A stretch of 34,039 nucleotides of DNA from Candidatus Peregrinibacteria bacterium CG1_02_54_53 (GTDB lineage: Bacteria > Patescibacteriota > Gracilibacteria > Peribacterales > Peribacteraceae), in the NCBI GenBank assembly GCA_001872575.1, contig MNWP01000021.1:1-34039 (forward strand), in the 5' to 3' direction. A model generated the notes under the pieces. It searched no databases, was not told where the DNA came from, and was given only the letters and a program-made list of their open reading frames with translations. Position numbers and translations under genes: made by a program. Every line of letters begins with the position of its first letter. Positions within the stretch are counted from its first letter, which is position 1. Of the stretch, positions 2,487-8,714 are shown piece by piece.

Positions 2487-3818
2487 ATGACCTACCTGCC
2501 CGCTCTCGCCAAGACCGATCCGCAGCTTCGCGATCTCATCATTGCCGAGGAACAACGCCAATGGGCGAAGGTTCGCCTGATTCCGTCGGAAAACTACGCT
2601 TCGTCGGCTGTGCTCGAAGCATCGGGAAGCGTGCTCACGAACATCTACTCCGAAGGATACCCCGGTAAACGGTATTACGAGGGCCAGCAGATCACCGATC
2701 AGATTGAAACGCTTGCCATTGAACGGGCGAAGGCGGCATTCCACATGGACCATGCAAATGTACAGCCATATTCGGGCAGTCCGGCAAACATGGCGGTCTA
2801 CCATGCCGTGCTGCAGCCGGGAGACGTCATCATGGGGCTTTCGCTGCCCCAGGGCGGTCACCTCACACACGGATGGAAAGTGAACTTCTCGGGCAAGCTC
2901 TACCACTCGGCACCCTACGAACTCGATCCCGAAACGGAGCGCCTCAATTACGACAAGATTTGGCAACAAGCGAAGGAGGTAAAACCCAAGCTCATCGTAG
3001 CCGGTTACACTGCCTACCCACGGACCATTGAATGGGAGAAATTCCGCGAGATCTGTGATGACGTCGGAGCGATCTTTCACGCCGACATTTCACACATCAC
3101 CGGCCTCATTCTGGGAGGCACACATCCCAGCCCCTTCCCGATGGCCGATACCGGCATCACGACATCGCACAAGTCGCTGCGCGGTCCCCGCGGAGCCCTC
3201 ATGGTTTGCAAAGCGCAGTACGCCCAAGCCATCGACAAAGCGATCATGCCGGGTCTGCAGGGAGGACCGCACAACCAGACCACCGCAGCCATCGCCGTCG
3301 CCTTTAAGGAGGCCGGCCAACCGGCATTCAAGGAGTACGCCGCTCAGATCGTCAAGAACGCCAAAGCGCTTGCCGATCAGTTGCTCACGCACGGTTTCCG
3401 GCTCATTACCGGCGGAACCGACAATCACCTTATTCTCTTCGAGACGTTCAAGAGTAAGGGCATTCTCGGCCGCGATGCATCGCGCGCCATGGATCGCGCC
3501 GGCATGGTCGCCAACTGTAATCTTGTTCCGTTCGACACGCAGACACCGATGAACCCATCGGGCGTGCGTATCGGGACGCCATCGGTGACATCGCGCGGTA
3601 TGAAGGAGCCGGAAATGCGCAAGATTGGCGACTGGATCAATGCCGTACTGACCAGCGCCAAGGATGAAGCCGCACTCGACCGTATCGCCGGCGAGATCGC
3701 AGAGTTGTGCCAAAACTTCCCCTGCCCCGGCATCGATCCGCAGCACTGGACCGATACCAACGGACCGTCACATGCGAAGAAAGGCGCAGACAGAGAGGTG
3801 GCCACGTTACGGTCGTAA
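2487..3818 (+). CDS. glyA: Serine hydroxymethyltransferase
   Basis: PLP enzyme of 443 aa that interconverts serine and glycine while charging THF to 5,10-methylene-THF, the main one-carbon source. The PLP lysine is K229 in TTSHKSLRGPRG, and D200 in FHADISHI is placed to contact the pyridine nitrogen. The N-terminal IPSENYAS and YPGKRYYEG motifs for substrate and folate binding are intact. The last 20 or so residues are a loose charged tail beyond the normal fold. A TAGTCT -10 candidate lies near 2448-2453, leaving a leader of roughly 25-30 bases with no clear Shine-Dalgarno sequence. It follows the folate cyclo-ligase on the same strand. Confidence 0.95.
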   Translation: MTYLPALAKTDPQLRDLIIAEEQRQWAKVRLIPSENYASSAVLEASGSVLTNIYSEGYPGKRYYEGQQITDQIETLAIERAKAAFHMDHANVQPYSGSPANMAVYHAVLQPGDVIMGLSLPQGGHLTHGWKVNFSGKLYHSAPYELDPETERLNYDKIWQQAKEVKPKLIVAGYTAYPRTIEWEKFREICDDVGAIFHADISHITGLILGGTHPSPFPMADTGITTSHKSLRGPRGALMVCKAQYAQAIDKAIMPGLQGGPHNQTTAAIAVAFKEAGQPAFKEYAAQIVKNAKALADQLLTHGFRLITGGTDNHLILFETFKSKGILGRDASRAMDRAGMVANCNLVPFDTQTPMNPSGVRIGTPSVTSRGMKEPEMRKIGDWINAVLTSAKDEAALDRIAGEIAELCQNFPCPGIDPQHWTDTNGPSHAKKGADREVATLRS

Positions 3819-3849
3819 GAAGTGCGCGAGTGAAAAATCCGGCTCATCT

Positions 3850-3878
3850 CTCACAGGTTTTGTGCGCTGTGCTAAAGT
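3850..3878 (+). promoter_or_regulatory. Promoter of the MscS-type channel gene
   Basis: CTCACA (-35 like), a 17-base spacer and TAAAGT at 3873-3878, with TG two bases upstream as in an extended -10. The ATG at 3887 is 8 bases after the -10 box, so the mRNA is likely leaderless. Confidence 0.5.
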
Positions 3879-3886
3879 GCTCACGT

Positions 3887-5272
3887 ATGACGCGCTTCAA
3901 GATGCATTCCTGGCCTCTCACACTCCTGTTTGCAGGATTACTTCTTGCGAGCGTCGCCGGCGCCGCCCAGAGCGATATTCAAAAGGATGTTCCGCGTCTT
4001 CAGTGGCGCTTCGATAGTCTGCTTAAAGCATCTACACCCAATGCGATAAGCCCGATCGAGAAGGGAATCGCCGATGAGCGAACAGCCATTCGGTCAGAGT
4101 TTGAAAAAGAATACGCAAAAACCATCAAAGACCTTGAGCAGGACCAGGCCGCGCCTTCTGATCTGGTACTGGCACTCGATCGGCAGCGGTCGATTGTCAA
4201 CGCCATCAATCAACGTATTGATGAACGAAAAGCAGACCTCTCCCTTCTCGAAAAAGAGGAATCGTACTATAAGCAAATTCAGAAGAGTGGAACGGGATCG
4301 CTGCCCTCTGATCAGATTCTCCTCACCAAATCCTATCCGGAGCTTCTTGCAAAGAAAGCAATCGTCGAAGAGCGCCTCGCCGTACTGCAGGCCTATCAGA
4401 AAGCACAGGGGGATCGGCTCAACACATTGAGGCAGGAGCAGCAGGTCCGCAACCTTGGCGTTCTCTTCAGTATTCTCACCTACCTTGCCATCTTCTTCAT
4501 CGTCTTCTGGGCCGAACGACTCATTAGAAATCTGCTGCTCAACCACATTCGTCACCGGCGCGTGCGCTACACGGCAACGAAGGTTTTCACCTTCGTGGTC
4601 TACGTGACACTTGTCTTCTGGTTCATTCAGCGCATCTACGCGGAGCACCCGGGAATCTCGACGGTCATCGCCGTGATCGGCGCCGCACTGGTCATTGTCA
4701 TGCAAGATATGATCAAGGGCATTGCGGGATGGTTCGGGCTAAAGAATTCCATCTCGATCGGACAGCGTATAGCCATCGGCGATATTGTGGGAGATGTCAT
4801 TGATGTAGGCATTCTCTACACCACACTCATCGTTTCGCGAACGGTGGATGCCGAACTCATGGGACACATAGGCAAGCTCATGCGTGTTCCCAACCAGAAG
4901 ATGCTGGTCGATCCCCTCGTGAATTTTCACAGCACATCGGATTTTGAGAACGTTGAAATGCCCATTCGCCTGAAGAAACCCGATCAGTACGAAGAGGCAA
5001 AGGGCATTCTCGAAGAAATCCTTGCAAAGGAAACAGGAGAGTTTGCTTCGCAGGCGCAACGACAGATGGATCGCCGAATGCGCGGGTACTACTTCACGCA
5101 GATCTCCCCTGCGCCGCGCGTCTACGTCGAAGTGACACCGGAGGGTATGATAGAGCTGCGACTGTGTTTTCCGGCCCCTATTGGTCGACGGCGCGTGGTG
5201 ATGACGCAGATTACCCAGGAACTTCTGAAGCGATTCGCCGAGAGGCACATTGAGCTCATGACTTCTGAGTGA
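3887..5272 (+). CDS. MscS-family mechanosensitive ion channel with coiled-coil periplasmic domain
   Basis: A 461-aa membrane protein of the small-conductance mechanosensitive channel family, expected to release solutes on osmotic downshift. It begins with a signal peptide or anchor (WPLTLLFAGLLLASVAGAAQ). Residues about 35-185 are highly charged and helical, probably an extracytoplasmic coiled coil. Hydrophobic segments follow near 190-215, 235-255 and 260-285; the last continues into a Gly/Ala-rich pore-type helix and the MscS beta domain (ISIGQRIAIGDIVGDVIDVG). The start at 3887 is preferred to an in-frame codon at 3707, which lies inside glyA, because it gives a signal peptide and follows a -10 box. 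Larger MscS proteins with extra N-terminal domains (MscK/YnaI style) are known, but the exact subgroup is not clear. Confidence 0.88.
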   Translation: MTRFKMHSWPLTLLFAGLLLASVAGAAQSDIQKDVPRLQWRFDSLLKASTPNAISPIEKGIADERTAIRSEFEKEYAKTIKDLEQDQAAPSDLVLALDRQRSIVNAINQRIDERKADLSLLEKEESYYKQIQKSGTGSLPSDQILLTKSYPELLAKKAIVEERLAVLQAYQKAQGDRLNTLRQEQQVRNLGVLFSILTYLAIFFIVFWAERLIRNLLLNHIRHRRVRYTATKVFTFVVYVTLVFWFIQRIYAEHPGISTVIAVIGAALVIVMQDMIKGIAGWFGLKNSISIGQRIAIGDIVGDVIDVGILYTTLIVSRTVDAELMGHIGKLMRVPNQKMLVDPLVNFHSTSDFENVEMPIRLKKPDQYEEAKGILEEILAKETGEFASQAQRQMDRRMRGYYFTQISPAPRVYVEVTPEGMIELRLCFPAPIGRRRVVMTQITQELLKRFAERHIELMTSE

Positions 5273-5335
5273 AACGAAATGTGTATTCTGCTTGTCTCGT
5301 AGAAAGTTAAGGCAGTTTTACATACACAATTTCAA

Positions 5336-5387
5336 ATTATTTGGCTTATTGAAGCCAGGATTTGGATATACCTTCTGTTCAAATAAT
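5336..5387. repeat. Inverted repeat in AT-rich spacer
   Basis: ATTATTTG (5336-5343) and CAAATAAT (5380-5387) are perfect inverted arms. A second small hairpin, GGCTT-attg-AAGCC, begins inside the left arm. No T tract follows, so it is not an obvious terminator. The spacer 5273-5430 otherwise holds nothing I can name. Confidence 0.4.
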
Positions 5388-5430
5388 GTGATCAATACTA
5401 CAAAATTATGCACCGAGCCAGCTCAAGAAT

Positions 5431-5458
5431 TTGCCTGAAGATTCAAGCGCGGTATAAT
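5431..5458 (+). promoter_or_regulatory. Strong sigma70-type promoter for the structured RNA
   Basis: TTGCCT at 5431-5436, a 16-base spacer and a perfect TATAAT at 5453-5458. It is the best promoter match in this part of the window, and no protein gene lies downstream on the plus strand. Transcription should begin near 5464-5466. Confidence 0.7.
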
Positions 5459-5463
5459 GGCTG

Positions 5464-5957
5464 GATTTGCTATCCAAGCAAATCAAGCCACAGTCGCTCA
5501 CAAGCTATGTGGCATGGCCTGCGGCCTCGTGTTCCTTCCTACAAAGAGAAAGACAAAAACACATAGCTCCTCCCGTCCCGCTTGTGCGGGACGGGGTCCG
5601 GAGCCTCTCCTGCCCCTTCACACCACCGATACCGCGCAGAGAGAAGGATGCCCATCCCCCCTTCCATGAACATCCTCCTCTCTGCTGTGCAATGTCGCCC
5701 GCCGGCTTCAAGGAGCCGGACGGACGCACCCCCTCTACTCCCCATGGATCCCTCCGCAACTGCGAGGTTTAAAGATCCTGGTACGGGGACCTCGACCGGT
5801 CACGAGGAGAAACAAGGACCCCAGCACGGCAGACCGTCGAAGGCTTCCTCCCTTCACCCTTCTCCCTCATCCGCTCGCGAAGCAGATCTCTTGCTTCCGA
5901 TAGCACCCGAGGGTGAACACCAACACAAAAAGGCCGGACACGTTCCGGTCTTTTTTT
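5464..5957 (+). ncRNA. Large structured non-coding RNA, unknown family
   Basis: About 490 nt between a strong promoter and an intrinsic terminator, with no plausible protein. The sequence is full of perfect or near-perfect helices. Helix 1: GATTTGCT 5464-5471 with 5477-5484. Helix 2: AGCTATGTG 5503-5511 with CACATAGCT 5560-5568, enclosing a GGCC hairpin. Helix 3: CCCGTCCCGC 5572-5581 with 5586-5595, a TTGT tetraloop. Helix 4: GCAGAGAG/GGATG 5636-5650 with CATCC/CTCTCTGC 5671-5685. Further hairpins include CCGGCT/AGCCGG, CCTCG/CGAGG and GAAGCA/TGCTTC. I looked for the conserved RNase P core, the tmRNA ends and tag, and the SRP RNA loop, and found none on either strand. Function is unknown; it may be a housekeeping RNA that has diverged beyond recognition or a new class. 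Confidence 0.6.
5932..5957 (+). terminator. Intrinsic terminator, possibly bidirectional
   Basis: GGCCGGA (5932-5938), loop CACGT, TCCGGTC (5944-5950), then seven T. Five A precede the stem, so on the minus strand it is followed by TTTTT and could also end the ATPase transcript arriving from 6030. Confidence 0.8.
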
Positions 5958-6029
5958 AATTCATGAGGGACAAAGCCTACTTTGTCGCTTAGACAAAGGT
6001 GGAAAGAAATGCGTCAACAAATGGATTCT

Positions 6030-8714
6030 TCACGCAGCACCCTTTTTGCGTTCCGCGAGCTCCTGCAACGCCTTACTCAACGGTGGTACTCCCCCGCTCA
6101 CCTCCAGCCTCTTCTCCAGATCCTTCCAGATCTTCTCTTCCTCCTGTGTGAACGCTCCACCGAGAATTTGCTTCTTTCGCAGAGCATTGAATTCATTCAT
6201 CCACATTTCGCGGTCGCGCCACGCACGGTACTCCTTGAGACTCATGCCTTTCTTTTTGGCCTTCTTCAGCTCTTCCTCCTCCCTCTCTTTGGCTTTCTCG
6301 CCTGCTTTGGCTTGTGCCGAAGCTTCAAAGGAACCGGCTGCCCACTTCATAATCTTCTCCTCCACTATTGCACGTTTCTCCGTGTAGCGCTCACGTGAGA
6401 GCTTGCGCAAGATCTCAAGACGTCGTTGATCGTGAGCGGAATGAGGAGGCGGAAGTGTAGTGACCGAGAAGGGCTTGCTCGGCACACCGTCGATCATCAG
6501 ACGCACATAGGCATGGTACTTGGGCAGGCTGAGGATATCTTTGGTCGTCACGGCCTCCTCGAACTGCAGGCTCAATGCCTCGGCATCGTCCGATCCCACC
6601 TGAAAACACACAATGGATCCTACGTTGCCGAATACCGCATCCTTGAGCGTGGTCTTGCCCTCGCCGATAAGAAGCTGCGCAACGTACTGGTTGGCCATGG
6701 TTAGGTTCAGACGATATTTGCGTGCCTCAGAGAGAATGGAAGCGAACGACTCGGTGGCAAAGTTTTGGAATTCGTCGACGTAGAGGTAAAAATCTCTGCG
6801 CTCTGATTCGGGAATATCGGCACGACTCATCGCATCAATCTGGAATTTGGTAACGAGCATCGAACCGAGGAAGGCAGAAGTGTCTTCGCCAAGCTTTCCT
6901 TTGCTTAAGTTCACGATGACGATCTTGCCCGAATCCATGGCATGACGGATATCGAGGCCATTCCTCACCTGTCCCACAATGTTGCGGATGAGTGGTGTAG
7001 CGAGAAGCTGACCCACCTTATTCTGAATTGCCGCAGTCGCCTCAGTGCGGTACTTGTCATTCCACGATGCATACTCTTGCTCCCAGAAACTCTTCACCAT
7101 GGGATCTTTGACGCGTGATACGACTTTTTTTCGATATACGTCATCGGCGAACATCCGCATGATGCCCAACATCGAAGATCCCTGAAATTCCAGAAGCGCG
7201 AGCAGTGTGTTGCGAAGAATATGCTCCATTCGACCGCTGAACATCCCCGGCCACAGCTTGGTAAAGACGCTCATGAGTCCGGATGCCACGAGTACCCGTT
7301 GATCGGGATTCGGACAATCGAGGACATTGAAGGAAATGGGGAAATCACGATCGGCCGGATCAAATATCACCACGTCATTGCTCCGATGTTTGGGAACGAA
7401 TTGTGGCACCATTTCGGCCAAATCGCCGTGCGGATCGATGATGCCAACGCCTTTCCCTGCCTGAATATCGGAAAAAATCATATTCTCGAGCAATGTGGAT
7501 TTACCCATGCCCGTTTTACCCAGGATGTAAACGTGGCGGCGGCGATCATCCAGACGAATGCCGAATTTCGATCGCTGCCCTCGAAAAACCGACTCGCCGA
7601 GAACGGTGAGGGAATCGGCGGAATCCGATAGTTCGGGTAACGGCAAGTTCACGGGTGGCTCGAGCTTCTTGCTCAACACCCAATCGATATTCGGCGTCTG
7701 CACAAGTAGGGTGGGCATATGCCACATGGTGGCGACTTCTTCGACAGACAAAACGAACGGCCGTGTTGAAAACCCAAAGGGAATCGACGAGAGTTTGCGC
7801 TCAGATAACGCAGCGAATTCATTGCTGTGAGGCAATGAGAACTGTCGAAAGCTTCCTACAATCTCGCGAGCTTTGCGACCCGCTTCGAGAGACTTGCCCT
7901 TCGGTGCAATCACGCTGACACGTACATTACAGGTGAAGAGGAGTCGATTGACTTTGTCGACTGCGCCCGAAACCGCATCTTCACGATCGTGTGTTCGTCC
8001 GGCAATCCGCTCGCCCTCTCGCTCTTCATCCTCCTGCGAACGCTCTGTGAATTCTGCAGTACTCAATCGCACCTTGCGCAGCAATGGCGAAGCCCGAAAT
8101 CCTCCCAGGAACATCGAGAGCGGCCAGTACGCAAGTTGACGCCACCCGCGGGCCAGAACGATGCGCGTGTAGAAATTTGCGTAGCGCCTTGAAAGAGACG
8201 GCAAGCCTTTCTGAAGGAGCGGCAAAAAGCAGAGTGATCGAGTGCGAAATCGCCCTCCAAGGGGACGCAAAGCGATCTGTATGTGTCCACGCATTCCTGC
8301 AAAGGGATACCGCGCGATGGAGGACGTAAGACCCGCTATGGGATCTATATTCACACGCGCAAGCATGTCATCGAACTGCGGATGACGTTTGATCGGAAAA
8401 ATCTCGGGTGCCTGTAATGCGAGATCGACACAGACAACCTCTTCGCCCTCGGCAACGGTAAAGGGGTCTTCGTGAAGCTGTTCAATATCGATATCGGGAA
8501 ATTGTGCGTAGAGCTGGCTCTCGACCAGTCCTACAACATCTTCATCGGCACGAACGAAGAGCGCAATTTTGCGATCACGACCGACACCGATTTCCAAACC
8601 TACGGACATATTTCTTCCTTTTAACGAGTGAAGAGCCGCAATCATCGATTCGACGTACAGGGGCCCTCGTTCGTTTTCGAGAGCCGGCCGGATTTTGAGT
8701 AGAACTGTCGACAT
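6030..8714 (-). CDS. VirD4/TraD-like DNA-translocation ATPase (type IV secretion coupling-type)
   Basis: An 894-aa FtsK/HerA-superfamily ATPase related to conjugative coupling proteins. Walker A ILGKTGMGKSTLLEN lies near residue 395-405 and is followed by the family's GIIDPHGDLAEMV. Walker B is LYVDEFQNF near 641-650, followed by an SILSEARKYRLNL sensor region and an ANQYVAQL segment. The N-terminal 380 residues contain no clear membrane helices, unlike VirD4, and may be a family-specific domain. The C-terminal 130 residues are Lys/Glu-rich and probably coiled coil. It starts 8 bases after hrcA and likely shares its CIRCE-controlled transcript; a TAATTA box just upstream could add a second promoter. 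No relaxase or other type IV secretion genes occur here, so the substrate (DNA or protein) is open. Confidence 0.85.
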   Translation of the reverse strand: MSTVLLKIRPALENERGPLYVESMIAALHSLKGRNMSVGLEIGVGRDRKIALFVRADEDVVGLVESQLYAQFPDIDIEQLHEDPFTVAEGEEVVCVDLALQAPEIFPIKRHPQFDDMLARVNIDPIAGLTSSIARYPFAGMRGHIQIALRPLGGRFRTRSLCFLPLLQKGLPSLSRRYANFYTRIVLARGWRQLAYWPLSMFLGGFRASPLLRKVRLSTAEFTERSQEDEEREGERIAGRTHDREDAVSGAVDKVNRLLFTCNVRVSVIAPKGKSLEAGRKAREIVGSFRQFSLPHSNEFAALSERKLSSIPFGFSTRPFVLSVEEVATMWHMPTLLVQTPNIDWVLSKKLEPPVNLPLPELSDSADSLTVLGESVFRGQRSKFGIRLDDRRRHVYILGKTGMGKSTLLENMIFSDIQAGKGVGIIDPHGDLAEMVPQFVPKHRSNDVVIFDPADRDFPISFNVLDCPNPDQRVLVASGLMSVFTKLWPGMFSGRMEHILRNTLLALLEFQGSSMLGIMRMFADDVYRKKVVSRVKDPMVKSFWEQEYASWNDKYRTEATAAIQNKVGQLLATPLIRNIVGQVRNGLDIRHAMDSGKIVIVNLSKGKLGEDTSAFLGSMLVTKFQIDAMSRADIPESERRDFYLYVDEFQNFATESFASILSEARKYRLNLTMANQYVAQLLIGEGKTTLKDAVFGNVGSIVCFQVGSDDAEALSLQFEEAVTTKDILSLPKYHAYVRLMIDGVPSKPFSVTTLPPPHSAHDQRRLEILRKLSRERYTEKRAIVEEKIMKWAAGSFEASAQAKAGEKAKEREEEELKKAKKKGMSLKEYRAWRDREMWMNEFNALRKKQILGGAFTQEEEKIWKDLEKRLEVSGGVPPLSKALQELAERKKGAA

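Follow-up and report, generated by a model that had tools for sequence, protein, structure and literature searches.

Bacteria have few large structured RNAs that are conserved, and several of these (OLE, GOLLD and ROOL) turned out to have unexpected structures. To our knowledge, there are no Patescibacteria among the hosts of OLE. ROOL and GOLLD are borne by phages and prophages (PMC12286853), and the raiA motif, an RNA of about 215 nt with a sigA-type promoter, a terminator and pseudoknots, occurs in Bacillota and Actinomycetota (PMC11706538). The DNA analysed here, hereafter the window, is a stretch of 34,039 nt from Candidatus Peregrinibacteria bacterium CG1_02_54_53 (contig MNWP01000021.1). 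Comparative sequence analysis identifies positions 5464-5957 of its plus strand as a predicted gene that stands alone, has a promoter and a terminator of its own, and specifies a large, structured non-coding RNA. Like OLE, ROOL and GOLLD, the predicted RNA is large, elaborately folded, stand-alone and non-coding, contains a pseudoknot and is defined by covariation. Unlike them, it has no match in Rfam, and it is a chromosomal RNA of Peribacteria and their relatives that does not appear in phage or viral collections. With the raiA motif (ModT, RF03072) it shares wide conservation, pseudoknotting and an own promoter and terminator, but it is about 490 nt long and gave no RF03072 match at any reported threshold. 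RNase P RNA, tmRNA and SRP RNA are also free-standing and the first two are of comparable size; these two, however, are encoded elsewhere in the same genome, while neither SRP RNA nor its protein partners were found in the lineage. 6S RNA, which is widespread in bacteria, is likewise a stand-alone trans-acting molecule, but it has another size and architecture and no Rfam match to it was obtained at this locus.

The comparison with Rfam 15 covered 4227 families, including OLE, ROOL, GOLLD, raiA, 6S, RNase P, tmRNA and SRP. A covariance-model search of both strands, as proposed in an earlier first-pass annotation of this DNA, found no family in the whole window at the gathering threshold except two tRNAs. 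At relaxed thresholds, positions 5000-6500 of the window, together with 19 homologous loci drawn from several families, yielded matches at chance level, all of them below gathering. We found no report of this RNA among the open-licence papers searched. There are precedents for the general kind, a large ornate RNA without assigned function, and the mechanism may be of a known type after all; the molecule itself is a putative new RNA family, a class without known relatives and unmatched in Rfam 15. As annotated at present, the locus would pass for empty intergenic space.

Between 5200 and 6200, TTGCCT-N16-TATAAT is the only sigma-70-like site, and the inferred transcription start is at about 5465. 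In 50 of 66 family members the 5' end of the RNA carries GATTT, closely preceded by a promoter of the form TTGnnn-N15-19-TAYRAT; the same pattern, sought on the opposite strand as a control, was found in none of the 66. In an alignment of the 66 members the promoter, the 5' GATTT, the core, the A/C-rich linker and the terminator are all conserved, and both the promoter and the GC stem followed by T7 that the first-pass annotation had described are features shared with relatives (Table 1). The window copy is about 490 nt long, and among the 40 family members in which both ends could be defined the length ranges from 413 to 815 nt, with a median of 549. The plus strand of 5464-5957 has a minimum free energy of -193.6 kcal/mol, compared with -149.1 +/- 5.6 for shuffled sequences (z = -7.9), which bears out the earlier claim that its helices lie far above chance; the minus strand is less extreme (z = -4.4). 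Four candidate ORFs lie over the region, and all are broken within the genus, at a DNA identity of 75-80%, by indels not divisible by three, by shifted starts and, in most cases, by internal stops. The frameshifting indels rule out a protein-coding reading, and the statement that no ORF is credible therefore stands. Taken together, the promoter, the terminator, the conserved fold and the non-coding status argue that this is an RNA gene.

Table 1. Features of the predicted RNA gene, in window coordinates.
Feature	Position	Strand	Basis or remark
Promoter	5431-5458	+	-35 TTGCCT 5431-5436, 16-nt spacer, -10 TATAAT 5453-5458
P1, 5' terminal hairpin GAUUUGCU/AGCAAAUC	5464-5484	+	Fold; conserved 5' GATTT in most members
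Variable lineage-specific hairpins, including 10-bp stem 5572-5595	5487-5604	+	Not conserved between members
CCUUCACACCACCG segment, conserved within the family	5615-5628	+	Alignment
P3, long helix, arms 5638-5655 / 5666-5683	5638-5683	+	Arms separated by variable insertions in relatives
P4, CUGCUGUGC 5682-5690 with GCACGGCAG 5824-5832	5682-5832	+	Closes the core junction
P5, hairpin	5696-5727	+	Double changes in 8 of 8 pairs
P6, UCCCC 5739-5743 / GGGGA 5785-5789; inner GGAUC 5746-5750 / GAUCC 5774-5778	5739-5789	+	
P7, CCUCG 5790-5794 / CGAGG 5803-5807	5790-5807	+	Stem 1 of the H-type pseudoknot
Pseudoknot stem 2, GGUC 5798-5801 with GACC 5817-5820	5798-5820	+	Covariation
A-rich pseudoknot loop AGAAACAAG	5808-5816	+	Between P7 and the 3' strand of stem 2
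P8, hairpin GAAGG/CCUUC, CCUC in the loop	5839-5855	+	Covariation
P9, 3' bulged helix	5856-5916	+	Window GCUC...GAUAGC is a version of the CUCAG...CUGAUAG motif
A/C-rich single-stranded linker	5917-5931	+	Conserved as AnACAaAnACAAAAAG; A-rich linkers in other families too
Intrinsic terminator	5927-5957	+	12-bp stem 5927-5955, T7 end; conserved in the family alignment

The predicted fold is shown by covariation. In an alignment of 51 sequences that was built without regard to structure, 87.9% of the alignment cells pair, and this proportion drops to 37-52% when the partners are slid by 1-3 columns. Changes on both sides are seen in 28 of the 39 pairs, compared with 12.5 after shuffling, and double-change cells number 133 as against 52.5. 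A second alignment (88 sequences), which is model-fitted and leans towards the structure, gives 91.5% paired cells and 434 double-change cells, with 108 when shuffled. Across the class there are 475 double-change cells and 149 in shuffles, so that the compensatory changes for which the first-pass annotation had suggested looking in relatives are in fact numerous. RNAalifold, applied to the class-wide alignment, recovers P4, P6, P7 and P8 unprompted. In the pseudoknot stem 93.7% of the cells are paired (18-54% in slid controls), with 41 double-change cells compared with 13.5 after shuffling; because this stem is absent from the search model, its count is independent.

Comparison of the members shows a conserved core in which P4 closes a junction formed by P5, P6 and the H-type pseudoknot, followed by P8 and the 3' bulged helix. 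P4 has the consensus CUGCUyUGC/GCAnGGCAG; class-wide, 97.5% of its cells are paired and 6 of 8 pairs have double changes. In P6 the outer and inner parts are paired in 95.5% and 85.2% of cells and in P7 the value is 95.7%, with double changes in all pairs of both helices. The P9 motif, written as GCUCA[GA]...[UC][UC]GAUAG, occurs in 41 of 66 family members and can be recognised by eye in other families. Invariant unpaired nucleotides are found at GAUG after P4, in the AAACAA of the pseudoknot loop, at CCAAAG before P4 and in the AU bulge of the 3' helix. For P3 the arms reach a mean best pairing of 15.8 of 18, compared with 12.1 +/- 1.0 for shuffled arms, and sequence changes are seen on both sides. 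This helix corresponds to the two-part helix previously placed at 5636-5685, which is real, except that the comparative data reassign its four basal pairs: CUGC 5682-5685 pairs with GCAG 5829-5832 as part of P4 and not with 5636-5639, and members that carry UUGC at this position of P4 have GCAA or GCAU opposite (for example L066 and L042). We considered whether CUCUCUGC might switch between pairing with GCAGAGAG upstream and with GGCAGAGA downstream, but dropped this reading because covariation puts CUCUCU 5678-5683 in P3 and CUGC 5682-5685 in P4, and only 2 nt are ambiguous. The 10-bp hairpin at 5572-5595 is present exactly as it had been described, though it lies within the variable, lineage-specific domain. 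In the copy of one member of the genus (L070, G002:C30, about 3848-4150), mutually similar hairpins of about 30 nt are inserted in the loops of P6 and P7, possibly a small repeat element that landed in tolerant loops.

The distribution of the RNA was followed by several routes. With 5420-5970 as a nucleotide query, 50 of 97 related genomes gave matches; every one of these belongs to the same family, and conservation is highest at window 5780-5833. When the core pattern was scanned against one genome per GTDB species, it was found on 51 contigs, almost all of them named Peribacteria, Peribacteraceae or Peregrinibacteria, which agrees with the earlier expectation that relatives would be found in Peribacteria; a Treponema contig (L164) in the same scan was a chance match that the covariance model did not find. 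A model built from family sequences only (R1) gave weak matches in two other families, where alignment and inspection by eye confirmed RNAs with promoter and terminator, and the search extended within these two families was positive in 5 of 6 and 6 of 13 genomes. The class-wide search (R2) placed the RNA in 110 of 353 genomes at an E-value limit of 0.01, at which a few of the weakest matches may be chance. In Peribacteraceae, the family of the window, 71 of 74 genomes are positive and 38 of these have two or three matches; the remaining 39 positive genomes belong to 12 other families of the class. Matches in families outside the training set (f21, f9, f18, f29, f155, f152, f16 and f4) were read base by base. 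Promoter-like sequence, A-rich linkers and a terminator are present in the majority of them, and most have a pseudoknot with a sequence of its own (UUGG/CCAA, GGCG/CGCC). The 243 class genomes that gave no match either lost the RNA or carry it in a form beyond detection; unless it is undetected there, the RNA is not essential class-wide. In 380 genomes from across the phylum (R3) there was no true match outside the class, and the sole outside match (G516) was rejected as a homologue since it lies inside a protein gene and has neither promoter nor terminator. Searches of viral contigs with the core pattern and of phage and plasmid collections returned no match, which argues against a phage, plasmid or viral origin. 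A full-strength copy (170 bits) was seen on the minus strand of a contig filed as Candidatus Uhrbacteria (L189, 1227-1407); this may reflect either misbinning or transfer.

Copies in the family sit mainly at two recurrent loci. At locus A, represented by 18 loci including that of the window, where an MscS-type gene lies upstream, the RNA is convergent with a gene for a HerA/TrwB-like ATPase. At locus B (up to 23 loci) it is divergent from a gene whose protein has no Pfam match and which adjoins SecF, and convergent with that of a TPR protein. The genome of the window has two copies, one on C36 (locus A) and one on C28 (beside the upstream genes of locus B), and a core phylogeny built with FastTree groups the copies partly by locus. 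In other families the neighbours, as we read their names from sequence, are presumably DUF881-like proteins and MurI, an F420-ligase-like protein and MscS, or serine dehydratase and enolase. The downstream gene is convergent at 45 of 64 family loci and at 22 of 30 loci elsewhere. A search for a partner gene by synteny was abandoned as neighbours differ between families, and this variation in flanking genes indicates that the RNA acts in trans. The MscS-type gene noted at the first pass (3707-5272, plus strand) is indeed upstream on the same strand in this genus, but only there, and it is no constant partner. MscS-type genes also occur at f21 and f26 loci such as L123, downstream of the RNA and convergent with it, and given these opposite arrangements in the two lineages, the recurrent adjacency is probably a coincidence.

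As to function, the reading with the best support, which is also the default for such RNAs, is a trans-acting scaffold for one or more proteins encoded elsewhere, and we hold it with about even confidence. According to such a mechanism, the RNA would be synthesised constitutively from its sigma-70-type promoter and would fold so that the pseudoknot holds a compact core together. This scaffold would bind the protein or proteins to give an RNP, with the invariant unpaired nucleotides (GAUG, AAACAA, CCAAAG and the bulged AU) as likely contact sites and the A/C-rich linkers separating the core from the 5' hairpin and the terminator.

GOLLD, ROOL and OLE, to which the RNA is similar in size and elaborateness, form homo-oligomers (PMC12286853), and a pseudoknot with an A-rich loop is suited to tertiary packing; the present RNA might likewise assemble on its own into a homo-oligomer or cage, with proteins in a secondary role. 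However, ROOL and GOLLD are encoded in phages and prophages near tRNA islands (PMC12286853), whereas this RNA is chromosomal, syntenic within the family and absent from the collections of viral, phage and plasmid sequences. It also lacks an identified kissing loop, and an RNA-only assembly seems to us unlikely. A regulator of RNA polymerase or of the ribosome, such as a 6S-like or ribosome-hibernation RNA, would be expected to have the near-universal presence in the family, the free-standing gene and the strong, consensus-like promoter that are observed, and global regulators of this type are conserved within classes. Rfam, though, gave no 6S match, and the fold is a pseudoknotted junction rather than an extended rod with a bubble at its centre. 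The family also has an anti-Shine-Dalgarno-like CUCCUC in the P8 loop and a Shine-Dalgarno-like GGAG after P7, but other families conserve neither, so that mimicry by these motifs was dropped and a role of this general type is improbable. The strong variation of the apical hairpins and the 5' domain among copies is what variable seeds would show if the loops and linkers bound mRNAs, the RNA being a trans base-pairing regulator or a sponge. We think this improbable as well: what is conserved is structural and not an exposed seed, and the long linkers are A/C sequences of low complexity and would make poor specific seeds.

A new kind of ribozyme or processing RNA would account for the deep conservation of a pseudoknotted core with invariant unpaired nucleotides. 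On the other hand, the gene is bounded by a promoter and a terminator of its own and sits at varied loci, which leaves no constant flanking substrate or cleavage site, and we regard catalysis of this kind as quite remote. The same promoter and terminator, with a downstream gene that is usually convergent, make it highly improbable that the RNA serves a neighbouring gene in cis, as a regulatory leader or 3' element. In favour of a cis element are the stable synteny at two loci within the family and the MscS-type genes found next to the RNA in the genus of the window as well as in f21 and f26; however, neighbours change between families, and MscS is upstream and codirectional in one case and downstream and convergent in the other. 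It follows that there is no conserved cis partner and that the RNA is not a leader.

Whichever of these mechanisms applies, an RNA that is near-universal in its family, is present in about one third of class genomes and belongs to no known family probably indicates unrecognised cell machinery. Since it covers a whole family of uncultured bacteria with small genomes and reaches into the class, it is probably important to these organisms, the cell biology of which is largely unknown. We suggest tentatively, and with less than even confidence, that the RNA may be the core of a new RNA machine, either an RNP or made of RNA only, with a novel function, which arose at or near the base of the class and was kept in nearly every genome of Peribacteraceae. 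Were this so, it would perform a function that no known bacterial RNA performs and that has been retained in spite of small genomes.

That the RNA is a divergent form of RNase P RNA, tmRNA or SRP RNA is extremely improbable: an SRP RNA was at first conceivable, as none of either bacterial type (RF00169, RF01854) was recognised in G000 and 38 relatives, 39 genomes of the class in all, but no SRP helix-8 motif was seen in this RNA, and RNase P RNA (RF00010, G000:C19:121504-121951) and tmRNA (RF00023, G000:C5:30752-31145) have genes elsewhere in the same genome, which refutes both of these identities. ARAGORN found no tmRNA at the locus, and the first-pass annotation was thus right in seeing no signature of RNase P RNA or tmRNA here. 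For the proteins of the signal recognition particle, a tblastn search of a single genome, the complete sister genome G003 from the same genus, with E. coli Ffh as the sole query (L253-L315), detected neither Ffh nor an FtsY homologue; in the control, GyrA was found with 91% identity. An SRP RNA would thus have no protein to bind in G003, and an SRP role, which is very unlikely, is practically excluded. As a separate observation, the lack of a recognised SRP RNA in 39 class genomes and of Ffh and FtsY in G003 means that this lineage appears to do without a signal recognition particle. Two further peculiarities were noted in G003. The 3' end of its 16S rRNA (G003:C1, about 1021257-1021430, within L304) reads ...GGATGGAACACTTCCTTACC compared with the usual GGATCACCTCCTTA, so that the anti-Shine-Dalgarno core looks altered, with CUUCC for CCUCC. 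Its tmRNA (G003:C1, 134785-135187) has an unusually long predicted tag, ATADVPAVFKKAFANFTFAPAFALAA.
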